Positions 7,549 through 54,244 of a stretch of DNA of 64,000 bases are shown piece after piece. Both the position numbers and the translations under genes were made by a program. Every line of letters begins with the position of its first letter. Positions within the stretch are counted from its first letter, which is position 1. The stretch lies in NCBI RefSeq assembly GCF_000016665.1, contig NC_009523.1, positions 3,843,501 to 3,907,500 on the forward strand. The letters are read 5' to 3'. The notes beneath the pieces were generated by a model. That model had not been told where the DNA came from. It did not search any database and saw only the letters and a program-made list of their open reading frames with translations. Origin of the DNA: Roseiflexus sp. RS-1. GTDB lineage: Bacteria; Chloroflexota; Chloroflexia; Chloroflexales; Roseiflexaceae.

Positions 7549-7848
7549 ATGGTCTTTGAAGCAATAATCCGCTCTCGCCCGCGCAGGTGGGCTTCGCCGC
7601 GCATAGCCGAGGGCGTATGGTCTTTGAGTAAGTATTCCGATATAGCCCGCGCAGGCGGGCTTCGCCTTGACTAGCCGAGGGCTTATGGAGATTGAGAATT
7701 TATTCCGCTATACCGCGCTAGCCGTGGGGCTGAAGCCCTCGGCTAACCAGGGCAAAGCCCGCCTGCGCGGGCTATACCGGATTATTTATTCAAAGACCAT
7801 CAGCCCGACGGCACGAGGCGCATACTGGATTAAGTGCTCAATCTCCAT
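7549..7848. repeat. Cluster of nested MITE-like palindromic repeats
   Basis: At least three copies of one family lie side by side. Each has an end TGGTCTTTGAATAAATAAT or the variant TGGAGATTGAG, an inner hairpin (AGCCCGC GCAG GCGGGCT) and a GC-rich block ending TAGCCGAGGGCTT. Copies near 7549 and 7617 run forward; one near 7735-7799 is inverted; the cluster closes with the variant end CTCAATCTCCAT. Their ends match the terminal repeats of the IS630-type element at 8899-10154. No coding sequence is seen from here to 8060, and nothing recognisable at 7849-8060. Confidence 0.8.
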
Positions 7849-8718: not shown

Positions 8719-8898
8719 TATGGTCTTTGAGTAATTATTCCGCTCCAGCCCGCGCAGGCGGGCTTTGCATTCCATAGCCGAGGGCTGCATCCCCACGGCA
8801 AGGGCGCATACGGGGGCGCAGCGCACCTGATGGTCTTTGAAGAAATAATCCATTCTCGCCCGCGCAGGCGGGCTTCGCCCTGGATAGCCGAGGGCTTA
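8719..8898. repeat. Two MITE-like repeats abutting the IS630 element
   Basis: Copies start near 8719 and 8831, both with the TGGTCTTTGA end, the AGCCCGCGCAGGCGGGCT hairpin (first base varies) and the TAGCCGAGGGCT block. The second runs directly into the left end of the transposase-bearing element at 8899, so the element landed in or next to a repeat. The stretch 8616-8718 has no gene and no recognised signal. Confidence 0.78.
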
Positions 8899-23684: not shown

Positions 23685-24691
23685 GCGCCGCCACCCCGCA
23701 CACTCCGGATCGCAGCACGCCGATCACGACGCAGCCGCAGCGAACACAGGCAGCAGAGTTCCCAATGGGAACATCTACTTGCTATTCCTTACTTCGTACC
23801 TGTTCACACCTGGGGTTGTTAACACACGCGCCTGGGAGCAAGGGCGTCCCGCCCTCGCTGCGTCTACGAGGGCAAGATGCCCTCGCTCCCAGGAGAAATG
23901 TGAACGCTTGCCTTACTTCACCGCCCACAGGTACGCTGCCGCACGCCGATGGATGCCCTGCCGCGATTCGACGAGAGGGCGCAAACAGGCAACAAGCCTT
24001 TCCATCTCATCGAGCGTCAGCACCTGCTGCATGGCTTCTTCAAGGGTCGGAATAATGTGCCTGTTCTGCGCTGCTCAAGGGGAGCGTTCTTGGAAGCGAT
24101 GCGCAGTTTGCTGCATTCCCGTGCGCTTTTGCCCCTCATCCCCCCAACCCCCTGCTCCCACAAAAGGAGCAGGGGGAGGTTGGGCGTCCTGAAGCCCAAA
24201 ACGAGAGCAGGAACACAGGCGCCCCCAAAGAACCTGCCCCTGTAAGGCGAGGACGTCCCGCCCTCGCGGGGCGTCAAGGGCGAGATGCCCGCGCTCCCAA
24301 TGCGGACGAGACGCCCGCGATCCCAGCACGCGGACGAGACGCCCGCGCCCTCAGGCGGTGCAGGGACGCGAACGGCTTCAGCGCGCCAGGAATATGGTCT
24401 TTGAGTCATTATTCCGCTGTAGCCCGCGCAGGCGGGCTTCGCCCCACGCCCCCCGCACGCGGGGGGTCGGGGGGTTGAGCCGGGGGCTTATGGTCTTTGA
24501 AGAAATAATCCGCCATAGCCCGCGCAGGCGGGCTTCGCCTTGACTAGCCGAGGGGTTCACCCCGACGGCACGCGGTGCATACCGGATTATAGCAGTTCTC
24601 ACAGAGGTTGAACCTGATAGACAAGGTTGAACACTCGTGGGAACTGCGCGCCCCACACGGTGACCGAAATGAATTTCGGTCTACGCTCCGC
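23685..24691. other. Repeat-rich intergenic region
   Basis: About 1 kb without an intact gene. It holds inverted blocks GGGAGCAAGGGCGTCCCGCC / GAGGGCAAGATGCCCTCGCTCCC (23836-23900), a gene remnant (23913-24072), an inverted copy of the CCCCCTTCTCC-type hairpin repeat (24120-24210), further GACGCCCGCG(C/A)TCCC repeats (24250-24345), two or three MITE-like repeats (from 24392 to about 24600, ends ATGGTCTTTGA, hairpin AGCCCGCGCAGGCGGGCT), and a diverged copy of the 94-bp block with GACCGAAATGAATTTCGGTC (to 24690). Confidence 0.7.
23913..24072 (-). pseudogene. Possible C-terminal gene remnant
   Basis: About 52 codons between an in-frame TGA and a TAA at 23915-23913 read as a plausible protein tail: TLEEAMQQVLTLDEMERLVAC, then LRPLVESRQG and RRAAAYLWAVK. 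There is no start codon or ribosome site, and repeats surround it, so it looks like the stranded end of a deleted gene. Parent family not recognised. Confidence 0.3.
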
Positions 24692-25750
24692 TCACGACAC
24701 AATGCCGCTTGCGACAAGCAACTCAGCGTTGAGGATAGCGCCGCCAGCTGCGCCGCGGATGGTATTGTGCGACAGCGCGACCATGCGCAGGTCCAGCACC
24801 GGGCAGGCGCGCACCCGCCCGACGCTGGCGCTCATACCGCGCCCGGCATCACGGTCACGACGGGGTTGGGGACGGTCGCCGACGCGGTGAACGATGAGTG
24901 CGCGTTCCGGCGAACTCGGCAGGTGACGCACAATCTCAGGCGGCGTGAATGCTTCCAGCACCGCCAGCGCCTCCTCCGGCGACGGTTTCTGCGCAAACGA
25001 TGCCGCGATCAGCGCTGTATGTCCATCGATGATCGGAACACGGGTCACCTGTGCGCTGATGGCGATCTGCGTCTCGATAACCTGACCTTCCACAACTCTG
25101 CCAAGCAATTTGCGCGGCTCGGACTCAATCTTCGCCTCTTCGCCGCCATCGGCGATGTTCGGGATGATATTGTCGATAATGTCGAGCGACGCTACACCGG
25201 GATACCCGGCGCCGGATACCGCCTGGAGCGTGCTGATATGCGCCTTCTGCAAACCGAATGCATCGTGGAGCGGCTTCAACGGCATCACCGCGCTGATCGT
25301 CGCACAGTTCGGGTTGGTCACCAGGCATCCCTGCCAGCCGCGTTCGGTGCGTTGACGTTCGATCAGCGCCAGTTGATCGGGATTGACCTCCGGGATGATC
25401 AGCGGCACATCGGCGACTGCGCGGTAGGCGGACGCATTCGAGCAGACAGCAGTGCGCGCCGCCCAGAGCGGTTCCGCCTCACGCGCCACATCTGTCGGCA
25501 GCGCCGATAGCGCAATTGCAACATCAGCCACCGCCTCAGTTGGCTGAACGATCATCTTTGCTACCCGTTCTGGAATCGGCGTATCGAGTATCCAGCGCAC
25601 CAATTCGCCGTAGGGACGCCCAATCGTCCGGTCTGAACCGGTCAATACAGCAATCTCGAACCACGGGTGATCCGCCAGGAGTTGCACCATCCGCTGACCA
25701 ACGGCGCCTGTGGCGCCAAGAATAGCGACTGGTAATCGTTTGTGAATCAT
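24692..25750 (-). CDS. asd: Aspartate-semialdehyde dehydrogenase
   Basis: 352 residues. N-terminal PVAILGATGAVGQRMVQLL binds NADP; catalytic Cys in VTNPNCATI; substrate Arg/His region in PIIDGHTALI; AVSGAGYPGVASLDIIDNI is also conserved. Length and motif order match the archaeal/fungal-type branch rather than E. coli Asd. It reduces aspartyl phosphate to the semialdehyde, the branch point to Lys/DAP, Thr and Met. Last gene of thrC-lysC-asd; gap to lysC 22 bp. The RDAGRGMSASVGR loop near the C-terminus is also family-typical. Confidence 0.95.
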   Translation of the reverse strand: MIHKRLPVAILGATGAVGQRMVQLLADHPWFEIAVLTGSDRTIGRPYGELVRWILDTPIPERVAKMIVQPTEAVADVAIALSALPTDVAREAEPLWAARTAVCSNASAYRAVADVPLIIPEVNPDQLALIERQRTERGWQGCLVTNPNCATISAVMPLKPLHDAFGLQKAHISTLQAVSGAGYPGVASLDIIDNIIPNIADGGEEAKIESEPRKLLGRVVEGQVIETQIAISAQVTRVPIIDGHTALIAASFAQKPSPEEALAVLEAFTPPEIVRHLPSSPERALIVHRVGDRPQPRRDRDAGRGMSASVGRVRACPVLDLRMVALSHNTIRGAAGGAILNAELLVASGIVS

Positions 25751-25772: not shown

Positions 25773-27176
25773 TCATACTCCCGTCAGACGATGCACAGCG
25801 CGCACGGCGGCATCGCAGTCCGCCGCAGCGACGACGGTGCTGATTGAACATTCGGATGATCCCTGTGCAATGGCAATCACATTGATATGATTGTCGGCAA
25901 GTGCGCCAAAGACGCGCGCCGCAACCCCCGGCGTGTCGCGCATACCTGCGCCGACGGCAGTCACGATTGCGACATCCTCGCGCGCCCAGATGCGGTCAAT
26001 ATCGCGGCGCGCCAGTTCCATCGCCAGGTTATGCTCGAGCGCATAGGTGACCTGAGGAATGGTACTGGACGGCACCACAAAGCAAATACTCTGTTCCGAC
26101 GATGCCTGTGAAATCATGAGCACGTTCGCGCCAACACTGGCGACAGCGCCGAAGGTGCGTGCCGCAACGCCAGGAACGCCAATCATGCCACGTCCTTCAA
26201 CAGTGACGAGACTCAGATTACGGATGGCGGTGACGGCTTTCACCGTCTGACCGTTCGACTCAACATCCTGAACCACCAGCGTGCCAGGGTGGTACGGGTT
26301 GAACGTATTGCGAACACGCAGTGGAATGCCGCGTTCGACGATCGGGCGAATAGTGCGCGGATGCAGCACCTTCGCGCCGAAATATGCCAGTTCTCCCATC
26401 TCAGCATATGAGAGAACCGGTATCACACGGGCATCGGGCGCCAGCCGCGGGTCGGTGGTCATGACCCCATCAACGTCGGTGTAGATATCGACCTCATCGG
26501 CGTCGAGCGCAGCGCCGATGATCGCACCGCTGTAATCGCTGCCGCCGCGCCCCAGTGTGGTTGTCACCCCCTGTTCGGTCGCACCAATAAAACCGGTGAT
26601 GACCGGCACGATGCCTCTGCCGAGCAGCGGCAGGATTCGGGCGCGGGTTCGTTCGCGCGTCACTTCCTGCAACGGGCGCGCATCGCCGAAGTGTGCAGTC
26701 GTCACCACGAATTCGGAAGCATCGAGCGCTTCGGCGGGAATGCCACGCGCCCGTAGCGCCGCAGCCACCACCCGCACACTCATACGCTCGCCGAGACTCG
26801 AAATCGCATCGATTGCGCGCGGCGACAGTTCACCGAGAACGGCGACGCTGTGACACAGGATGCTGAATTCGTCGATCAGGCGTGCAATCTGATCGTCGAT
26901 AGCGGTGCGCTCCTGATCGTCGGGCACAAGCTCCGCCAGCGCAGCGGCATGCTTTTCGCGCAGCATCCGATCCAGATCGCGAAATGTGTGCTTATCGCCG
27001 GACGCAGCGGTTGTCGCGCCACGGATCAGCATATCGGTCACACCACTCATTGCGGAGACCACCAGCACCACACGCCCCCAGGCAGCACGTTGCGCTTCGG
27101 TAATTGCAGCTACTGCCTGGATCGCAGCAGCATCGCCAACCGAGGTTCCGCCAAACTTCATCACCAGCAAAGGCAT
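25773..27176 (-). CDS. lysC: Aspartate kinase
   Basis: 467 residues from the ATG at 27176, with GGAGG 8 nt upstream; the longer open frame upstream lacks family homology. Kinase domain with VMKFGGTSVGDAAAI, ELSPRAIDAISSLGERMS, LGRGGSDYSGAIIGAALDAD and YTDVDGVMTTDPR. Two ACT domains follow (about residues 305-467), including GMIGVPGVAARTFGAVA and AGMRDTPGVAARVFGALA, which bind feedback effectors (Lys/Thr). It phosphorylates aspartate at the head of the pathway. Second gene of the attenuator-controlled operon. Confidence 0.95.
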   Translation of the reverse strand: MPLLVMKFGGTSVGDAAAIQAVAAITEAQRAAWGRVVLVVSAMSGVTDMLIRGATTAASGDKHTFRDLDRMLREKHAAALAELVPDDQERTAIDDQIARLIDEFSILCHSVAVLGELSPRAIDAISSLGERMSVRVVAAALRARGIPAEALDASEFVVTTAHFGDARPLQEVTRERTRARILPLLGRGIVPVITGFIGATEQGVTTTLGRGGSDYSGAIIGAALDADEVDIYTDVDGVMTTDPRLAPDARVIPVLSYAEMGELAYFGAKVLHPRTIRPIVERGIPLRVRNTFNPYHPGTLVVQDVESNGQTVKAVTAIRNLSLVTVEGRGMIGVPGVAARTFGAVASVGANVLMISQASSEQSICFVVPSSTIPQVTYALEHNLAMELARRDIDRIWAREDVAIVTAVGAGMRDTPGVAARVFGALADNHINVIAIAQGSSECSISTVVAAADCDAAVRAVHRLTGV

Positions 27177-27193
27177 TGCGAACCCTCCTTGCA

Positions 27194-28234
27194 TCACCAG
27201 CCCAACCATCGGAGAATGGCATTCATATCCGCCGGCACCGGCTGAGGCGTCTCGAATTGCTCCACCGCCAGTCCGGGATCTTTCAGTCCATGACCGGTCA
27301 GCACCGCCACATAGCATGCATCCGGATCGGCGCGCCCTTCGGCGACCATTTTGCGCAACCCGGCGACGCCGGCTGCCGATGCCGGCTCCGCGAATACCCC
27401 TTCCAGGCGCGCCAGGTCGCGCCAGCTCCGCAGGATCTGCTCATCGCTGACGGCGTCGATCGATCCTCCCGACTGATCGCGCGCATCGAGCGCATAACAC
27501 CAGCTCGCCGGGTTGCCGATCCGGATCGCGGTCGCAACCGTCTCAGGATGTTCCACCGGAGCGCCGTGCACAATCGGCGCTGCGCCCTCCGCCTGAAAGC
27601 CGAGCATCTTCGGCAGGCGGTTGATCCTGCCTGCTTCGTAATACCGGCGGAATCCCATCCAGTACGCGGTGATATTCCCCGCATTGCCGACCGGCAGACA
27701 GAGCGCATCGGGCGGACCACCCAGCGTATCACAGATCTCGTAGGCTGCCGTCGCCTGCCCTTCGAGGCGGTGCGGATTGACGGAGTTGACCAGCGTCACC
27801 GGAAACTGCCGCGCCAGATCGCGCACAATCCGCAGCGCTTCGTCGAAGTTGCCCTCGATCACCAGCAACCGCGCGCCATACATCAGCGCCTGCGCCAGTT
27901 TGCCCAGGGCGATCTTTCCGGCAGGCACAACCACAATTGACTCGATGCCGGCATGCGCCGCATATGCCGCCGCGCTCGCCGAGGTATTGCCGGTCGAAGC
28001 GCAGATGACCGAGGTAGCGCCGGCTTCGATGGCTTTGGCGACCGCCACCACCATTCCGCGATCTTTGAACGATCCGGTCGGGTTGGCGCCTTCGTACTTC
28101 AGGTACAACTCACGCACGCCGATGGAGCGCGCCAGGCGGGGTGCGGCAATCAGCGGCGTATCGCCTTCGCCAAGGCTGAGGCGCGGCGTTTGCCCGGTCA
28201 ATGGCAGAAATGCGCCATAGCGTTCGAACAGCAT
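27194..28234 (-). CDS. thrC: Threonine synthase
   Basis: 346 residues from the ATG at 28234 (GGAGG upstream). Fold-type II PLP enzyme: GEGDTPLIAAPRLAR, PLP lysine in NPTGSFKDRGM, phosphate-binding CASTGNTSASAAAYAAHAG and LPVGNAGNITAYWMGF. It converts O-phosphohomoserine to threonine. First structural gene of thrC-lysC-asd, so its mRNA is governed by the leader peptide and terminator at 28252-28398. Short (class I-like) threonine synthase, common in Chloroflexota and Firmicutes. Confidence 0.95.
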   Translation of the reverse strand: MLFERYGAFLPLTGQTPRLSLGEGDTPLIAAPRLARSIGVRELYLKYEGANPTGSFKDRGMVVAVAKAIEAGATSVICASTGNTSASAAAYAAHAGIESIVVVPAGKIALGKLAQALMYGARLLVIEGNFDEALRIVRDLARQFPVTLVNSVNPHRLEGQATAAYEICDTLGGPPDALCLPVGNAGNITAYWMGFRRYYEAGRINRLPKMLGFQAEGAAPIVHGAPVEHPETVATAIRIGNPASWCYALDARDQSGGSIDAVSDEQILRSWRDLARLEGVFAEPASAAGVAGLRKMVAEGRADPDACYVAVLTGHGLKDPGLAVEQFETPQPVPADMNAILRWLGW

Positions 28235-28251
28235 GCCTTCCTCCGTCTGTA

Positions 28252-28286
28252 AATAGAAAAGCCCCCTTCCTGCTCCAGGAGGGGGC
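28252..28286 (-). terminator. Attenuator terminator of the thrC-lysC-asd operon
   Basis: On the minus strand a GC-rich hairpin with arms GCCCCCTCCTG and CAGGAAGGGGGC (28286-28261) is followed by TTTTCTATT (28260-28252). It lies between the leader peptide stop and the thrC ribosome site, so it can only act as a conditional terminator within the operon leader. GGGAGGG inside the leader-peptide coding region can pair with CCCTCCT of the terminator's first arm to form an antiterminator. Confidence 0.85.
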
Positions 28287-28305
28287 GTCCATCGCAATCC
28301 GGCTG

Positions 28306-28398
28306 TCAGCGCCCGGAAACCCTCCCACGACGAACCGACCCGGTCGTGGTCGTCGGGGTCGTTGTCGCGGTTATCGTCGTGCGGGGTGCTGCAAGCAT
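28306..28398 (-). CDS. Threonine-rich attenuation leader peptide
   Basis: Thirty residues, MLAAPRTTITATTTPTTTTG then SVRRGRVSGR, read from the ATG at 28398 to the TGA at 28306. Ten residues are Thr, nine of them within residues 8-19, with one Ile. This closely resembles E. coli ThrL (runs of Thr and Ile) in composition and placement: about 30 nt after a predicted transcription start, before a T-tailed hairpin, and ahead of threonine biosynthetic genes. Ribosome stalling at Thr codons when Thr-tRNA is scarce would release the antiterminator. A strong Shine-Dalgarno is not visible. Confidence 0.82.
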   Translation of the reverse strand: MLAAPRTTITATTTPTTTTGSVRRGRVSGR

Positions 28399-28433
28399 AT
28401 CAGTTGCCGGTGTCGCAGGTTGTTGACAGGGTT

Positions 28434-28462
28434 ACTATACCCGTGATGGCGCAGACTGTCAA
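28434..28462 (-). promoter_or_regulatory. Promoter of the thrC-lysC-asd operon
   Basis: TTGACA (28462-28457), 17-nt spacer, TATAGT (28439-28434) on the minus strand. Predicted start near 28427, giving a leader of about 190 nt before thrC. On the plus strand a separate TATAAT at 28555-28560 probably serves the divergent hypothetical gene. Confidence 0.8.
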
Positions 28463-32536: not shown

Positions 32537-32769
32537 ATGGAGATTGAGCAACTTAAACCCGGTATGCGCCTCTTGCTGTCGGGCTGATGGAGATTGAGCA
32601 TTAAATCCGGTATGCGCCTCGTGCCGTCGGGTTGAAGCCCTCGGCTATGCAGGGCGAAGCCCGCCTGCGCGGGCTATAGTGGAATAATTACTCAAAGACC
32701 ATACGCCCTCGGCTATGCAGGGCAAAGCCCGCCTGCGCGGGCTATACCGGATTATGTATTCAAAGACCA
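32537..32769. repeat. Nested MITE-like repeats
   Basis: Two variant ends TGGAGATTGAGCA (32537 and near 32587) followed by inverted units ending TCAAAGACCA (near 32701 and 32769). Each unit has AGCCCGCCTGCGCGGGCT hairpins and the CCCTCGGCTATGCAGGGC block. Same family as at 7.5, 8.7, 10.2, 24.4 and 59.0 kb. Confidence 0.78.
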
Positions 32770-54058: not shown

Positions 54059-54097
54059 GGTTCTCCTCCTTAGCTCGAGAAGGGTCGAACACACAGT

Positions 54098-54215
54098 GTC
54101 GCGGCAGGCATCCTGGCTTCCGACGATACGATCGGTTACAGTTGCGGCACAGCGCTGGACTTGCACCAGCTTCCACCTTTACGCCCTGGCATCCGGGCCT
54201 GCGGGTCACCGCGAC
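54098..54215 (-). promoter_or_regulatory. Cobalamin riboswitch (right)
   Basis: On the minus strand P1 is GTCGCGG (54215-54209) with CCGCGAC (54104-54098). Conserved elements GGTGGAAGCTGGTGCAAGTC, GTGCCGCAACTGTAA and GGAAGCCAGGATGCCTGCC are present. It is nearly identical to the left riboswitch except in one variable stem, and also continues into CCCTTCTCGAG and GGAGGAGAAC, which can pair TTCTC with GAGAA to mask the ribosome site. Controls methyltransferase-ECF-cobN-MetE. Confidence 0.95.
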
Positions 54216-54244
54216 GTTTGAAAGGTTTATCTAGTACAAATAGC

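Follow-up and report, generated by a model that had tools for sequence, protein, structure and literature searches.

A predicted threonine leader-peptide attenuator upstream of the thrC-lysC-asd operon in the Roseiflexus family

The window analysed here is a 64,000-nucleotide stretch of the genome of Roseiflexus sp. RS-1, which consists of a single contig of 5,801,598 bases; positions given below are window coordinates. On its minus strand, a promoter is followed by a Thr-rich ORF of 30 codons, a GC-rich terminator and the genes thrC, lysC and asd. The identity of the three genes was assigned with NCBIfam models, all of which score over their cut-offs, in agreement with the operon named in the preliminary description. 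thrC (27194..28234), which we propose as the first regulated gene, encodes threonine synthase (TIGR00260, 317.7 bits versus a cut-off of 167.1). lysC (25773..27176) codes for aspartate kinase and matches NF004938 and TIGR00657 from about residue 48; its true start is internal to a long listed ORF (27317..25773) and lies 20 nt after thrC. asd (24692..25750) encodes aspartate-semialdehyde dehydrogenase (TIGR00978). A public locus named Roseiflexus carries a thrC gene that is 91% identical to that of RS-1.

The promoter upstream of these genes, TTGACA-17-TATAGT, spans positions 28462..28434, matches the consensus at 11 of 12 positions and is the best site between 24 and 32 kb of the window. The ORF extends from 28398 to 28306, with its TGA stop codon at 28308..28306, and encodes the peptide MLAAPRTTITATTTPTTTTGSVRRGRVSGR; ten of its residues are Thr, and nine of these lie between residues 8 and 19. 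No Shine-Dalgarno sequence precedes it in RS-1. Between the ORF and thrC there is a GC-rich hairpin with a T-tail (28286..28251). Its stem, GCCCCCTCCTG-gag-CAGGAAGGGGGC (28261..28286), folds with -20.8 kcal/mol, is present in all nine aligned leaders and is directly followed by the U-rich tract TTTTCTATTT (28251..28260). This terminator is absent from the output of a simple terminator scan, probably because the stem has a one-base bulge. Promoter, ORF and terminator hairpin are all as they had been described initially.

Further pairing elements overlap the ORF. The minimum free energy (MFE) fold contains a hairpin at 28326..28381, termed here the protector (1:2), for which RNAalifold draws an equivalent helix in related leaders. 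The competing upstream hairpin of the preliminary description is hence present, and its pairs can be refined: positions 28381–28374 (Thr codons 7 and 8) pair with 28333–28326, and 28361–28356 with 28341–28336. The run of Thr codons (codons 7–19, 28342..28380) would thus serve both as stalling site and as strand 1 of the protector. Two candidate antiterminator strands are located behind it. Strand 2a, TGGGAGGG (28320..28327), includes the GGGAGGG motif at 28326..28320, still inside the ORF, and can pair with CCCTCCT in arm 3 of the terminator. Strand 2b, GGGCG (28310..28314), can pair with CGCCC at 28287–28283; this is the best duplex in the Roseiflexus leaders, but in RS-1 it does not exceed composition-matched shuffles.

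To what extent this arrangement is shared was examined across the order, in which 16 distinct genomes of the family, from five genera (g1, g2, g5, g8 and g9), have a close thrC and intact upstream DNA. Promoter, Thr-rich ORF and GC-rich terminator are found at thrC in every one of them. The ORFs ahead of threonine synthase comprise 24–33 codons with 7–12 Thr, and an intrinsic terminator always lies between ORF and thrC. TTGACA and the 17-nt spacer are likewise invariant in the 16 leaders, TATAGT being used in the Roseiflexus-side genera and close variants otherwise. The preliminary description had named orthologues without Thr run or terminator as evidence against its proposal; none was encountered in these 16 genomes. 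Runs such as MTTTTTTTT in two of the ORFs (L009, L011) leave no doubt that Thr is the amino acid of the leader.

Outside the family the element was not detected. A Thr leader, defined by a 12-residue window with at least six Thr no further than 400 nt upstream of thrC, was present in 18 of 18 family loci (the 16 distinct genomes and the public copies L031 and L032) and absent from all 92 other thrC loci. In other Chloroflexota families, 78 thrC loci were screened and all lack it, which rules out a phylum-wide distribution; it is also missing from 18 distant thrC homologues, mostly from the Chloroflexus-type family. A Thr ORF conserved across Roseiflexus and Chloroflexus, as envisaged beforehand, is therefore found on the Roseiflexus side only: an orthologous thrC is missing in the Chloroflexus-type family, whose best match, at about 38% identity, is not preceded by a Thr leader. 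We also built a covariance model (R1) from the nine non-g9 leaders and searched 82 whole genomes with it. The model recovered its nine leaders and the seven withheld g9 leaders (E 3e-8 to 0.005), with a single match per genome and always at thrC; it gave no match in 56 genomes of sister families. As judged from these searches, the predicted Thr leader is confined to the Roseiflexus family.

In one sister family (f3; L018, L021, L024–L027, L029 and L030), a terminator-like hairpin with a T tail was observed ahead of thrC, for example GCGATGATGCCC..GGGGC-TTTT. It follows a TATAAT-like box at a distance of just about 14 nt, and a Thr ORF is lacking. As most f3 hairpins have GCGATGAT-(N)-GCCC in common with Roseiflexus-type terminators, they are perhaps a remnant or a precursor. 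In a sister-family genome, a SAM riboswitch lies downstream of thrC (L013, 3469–3579, plus strand).

The features found at thrC very probably constitute a ribosome-mediated transcription attenuator by which thrC-lysC-asd is controlled through the sensing of charged threonyl-tRNA. Under a shortage of Thr-tRNA, the ribosome would stall in the Thr run, making strand 1 unavailable to strand 2; strand 2 (GGGAGGG and GGGCG) would then be free to pair with the C-rich arm 3 (CGCCCCCTCCT), so that no terminator could form. With ample Thr-tRNA, the ribosome would reach the stop codon and cover strand 2, and the 3:4 terminator would form. If the leader is not translated, the Thr codons would pair with strand 2 in the protector and termination would follow as well.

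This reading requires that the Thr codons are read as such. A different explanation would be that a protein regulator binds the ACN-rich stretch as DNA or RNA, that its reading as Thr is incidental and that the terminator is either fixed or under protein control. The repetitive character of the stretch and the lack of a Shine-Dalgarno sequence ahead of the ORF would agree with such a site, but its substitution pattern does not. All four Thr codons are in use (ACT 57, ACC 47, ACG 24, ACA 21), and the ACN triplets change freely at their third base without loss of Thr: pairwise comparison of six Roseiflexus-type leaders gives 43, 40 and 80 differences in the Thr window for codon positions 1, 2 and 3. 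Thr is retained despite 13–15 nucleotide changes in this window (P 0.0004–0.019 versus random placement); randomly placed differences would leave about 4–5 Thr, and 8–10 are observed. Furthermore, the start codon, the frame and the stop codon at strand 2 are maintained in 16 leaders of five genera, and DNA words in the leader differ widely between genera. We consider a protein site very improbable on these grounds. In the last ten codons of the ORF, the differences in the same six leaders are 44, 33 and 23 at positions 1, 2 and 3; strand 2 is constrained as RNA.

The ORF might also be translated and cause stalling by means of an arrest peptide, or through a general slowing of translation, rather than through the charging of Thr-tRNA. 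Ribosome-arrest leaders do employ similar RNA switches, but arrest peptides normally need specific residues. Thr content alone is conserved between genera, the peptide being unconserved outside the Thr residues, and we give this explanation as little credence as the preceding one.

Threonyl-tRNA sensing also depends on where a ribosome would stand with respect to the RNA strands. Measured from the ATG in the 16 leaders, the last Thr codon begins at 48–72 nt, strand 2a at 70–85 nt and the stop codon at 72–99 nt. In 14 of the 16 leaders, strand 2a begins 17–25 nt after the last Thr codon does; the offset is 10 and 4 nt in L022 and L028, in which one more Thr stands alone behind the main run. The stop codon is never more than 20 nt away from strand 2a (16 of 16). 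Considering known ribosome footprints, a ribosome at the main Thr run would leave strand 2a free, and one at the stop codon would cover it. In their spacing, the Thr codons, the antiterminator strand, the stop codon and the terminator agree with what is known of classic attenuators.

Comparison of the leaders also bears upon the RNA structures themselves. For the Roseiflexus set (Roseiflexus plus three further genera), RNAalifold predicts the Thr-codon protector and the terminator. In g9, the protector joins the final Thr codons to the stretch that follows them and is drawn by RNAalifold unaided; 98% of its cells are paired, and compensatory changes, which the initial proposal had called for in the stems, occur at five of eight pairs. 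Taken together, the g9 protector and the 2b:3b helix have 93.1% of cells paired versus 81.8% in shuffles (none of 500 reaches the observed value) and 25–51% when slid, and their joint covariation score is better than that of each of 500 shuffles.

The antiterminator is the weakest point: the pairing of its G-rich and C-rich strands is conserved, but its strength mostly does not exceed what composition would give. The GGGAGGG:CCCTCCT duplex suggested in the preliminary description can form, and GUGGGAGGG with CCCUCCU-N-N has 96% of cells paired in nine leaders versus 60–77% when slid. As strand 3 hardly varies, the 2:3 pairing shows little covariation. Against composition-matched (dinucleotide) shuffles its mean z is -0.58, and it is clearly better only in L008, L022 and L028. 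The 2:3 pairing of L008 (genome G057; p=0.002) has a second helix, AGUUUGAU with AUCAAGCU, which continues GGGAGGG:CCCUCCU without a break and stands in place of the GGGCG:CGCCC of Roseiflexus. In every leader, the equilibrium MFE favours the terminator over the alternative pairing when arm 4 is present, so the switch would have to be kinetic, as in known attenuators. That same stability could be taken to indicate a constitutive leaky terminator that fixes the level of thrC, with the Thr ORF as a translated but unregulated uORF; this is the least probable explanation of all, as it leaves the retention of Thr, the covariation of the protector and the placement of strand 2 relative to the stop codon unexplained.

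Genera differ as to the start of the leader ORF. In g9 (L011, L014, L019, L020, L022, L023 and L028) the ATG is located only 6–7 nt behind the -10 box, from which a leaderless mRNA is predicted. In the non-g9 leaders this distance is 24–37 nt, and they show no clear Shine-Dalgarno sequence. Leaderless attenuator peptides are known in Actinobacteria, some of whose attenuators lie on leaderless mRNAs as predicted for g9.

The E. coli thrL leader, and its gammaproteobacterial counterparts, combine a Thr-rich leader peptide, mutually exclusive pairings and an intrinsic terminator ahead of threonine-synthesis genes. The leader described here resembles thrL in its Thr-rich ORF and terminator and would share the mutually exclusive pairings, and the earlier designation as a thrL-type attenuator holds for the mechanism, as judged by parts and geometry. 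It does not hold for descent: Rfam Thr_leader gives no match at the gathering threshold, nor even at E 5, so membership in that family was rejected, and no relation in sequence or structure is detectable. The Roseiflexus-family leaders differ from thrL, too, in having few Ile codons, which are interleaved in thrL, in preceding thrC-lysC-asd instead of thrABC, in lacking a Shine-Dalgarno sequence and, in one genus, in being leaderless (predicted). Because sister families lack the element and the thrL model does not match it, it is probably of independent origin. A T-box was also considered and rejected, RF00230 being absent from the window and from L008, L009 and L011, although it is detectable in the family (L206).

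Earlier work describes leader-peptide attenuators in Proteobacteria and Actinobacteria, and they are also reported for Firmicutes hisS genes (PMC2965389, PMC1262725). The actinobacterial trp, ilv and cys attenuators represent classic leader-peptide attenuation outside Proteobacteria (PMC1262725, PMC10272879), although for other amino acids and in another phylum; no threonine element was found in Actinobacteria (PMC1262725). The main text of a survey of 302 species names neither Chloroflexi nor Roseiflexus (PMC2965389). Our literature search found no leader-peptide attenuator of an amino-acid operon for Chloroflexi/Chloroflexota; the broad survey of Lopatovskaya et al. (2010) could hold such a prediction. 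The mechanism is hence a known one for which we found no earlier description in Chloroflexota, and priority of others is possible.

Other regulatory elements were noted in the family. In the RS-1 genome, the ilvB operon (L198, G000:C1, upstream of 2450642) is preceded by a branched-chain-rich leader ORF, MNRRNASLLLSLILVALIIITGL, with its own promoter and the terminator GCCCCTCCC..GGGAGGGGC. Comparable branched-chain-rich ilvB leaders occur in the other family genomes searched (L189–L204), and seven loci tested gave no Rfam match. Compared by layout, the ilvB leader shares promoter type, ORF and terminator with the Thr leader and differs from it in operon and in carrying Ile, Leu and Val codons; the ilvB operon of the family is also predicted to be under a leader-peptide attenuator. 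In the loci checked, no consistent Trp leader was found at trpE and no His leader was seen at hisG. One g9 genome has a T-box near trpE (L206, 3652–3932, minus strand); the family thus has T-box control alongside control by leader peptides. The window itself contains two cobalamin riboswitches (RF00174; 35161–35304, plus strand, and 54086–54228, minus strand) and a 6S RNA (RF00013; 20434–20606, plus strand). Matches to CRISPR-DR28 (7643–7774, 8856–8879, 24420–24539 and 32653–32744) are scattered, single or paired, on both strands and not within a long array; a single match occurs likewise in L213. They are possibly a dispersed repeat rather than CRISPR.

On balance, we favour a picture in which Thr attenuation arose independently in the Roseiflexus family, with leader-peptide attenuators for thrC-lysC-asd and ilvB, a T-box near trpE in at least one member and a leaderless Thr leader in one genus. 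The Thr leader would extend classic translation-coupled attenuation of an amino-acid operon to a deep-branching phylum, and would be a clear instance in which the same regulatory logic has apparently been invented anew. With their changing sequence and fixed geometry, the leaders form a useful set for testing what attenuators require. For Chloroflexota, such an attenuator implies coupled transcription-translation and the sensing of stalled ribosomes, and it would make the opening steps of the entire aspartate pathway (lysC, asd) dependent on the supply of threonine.
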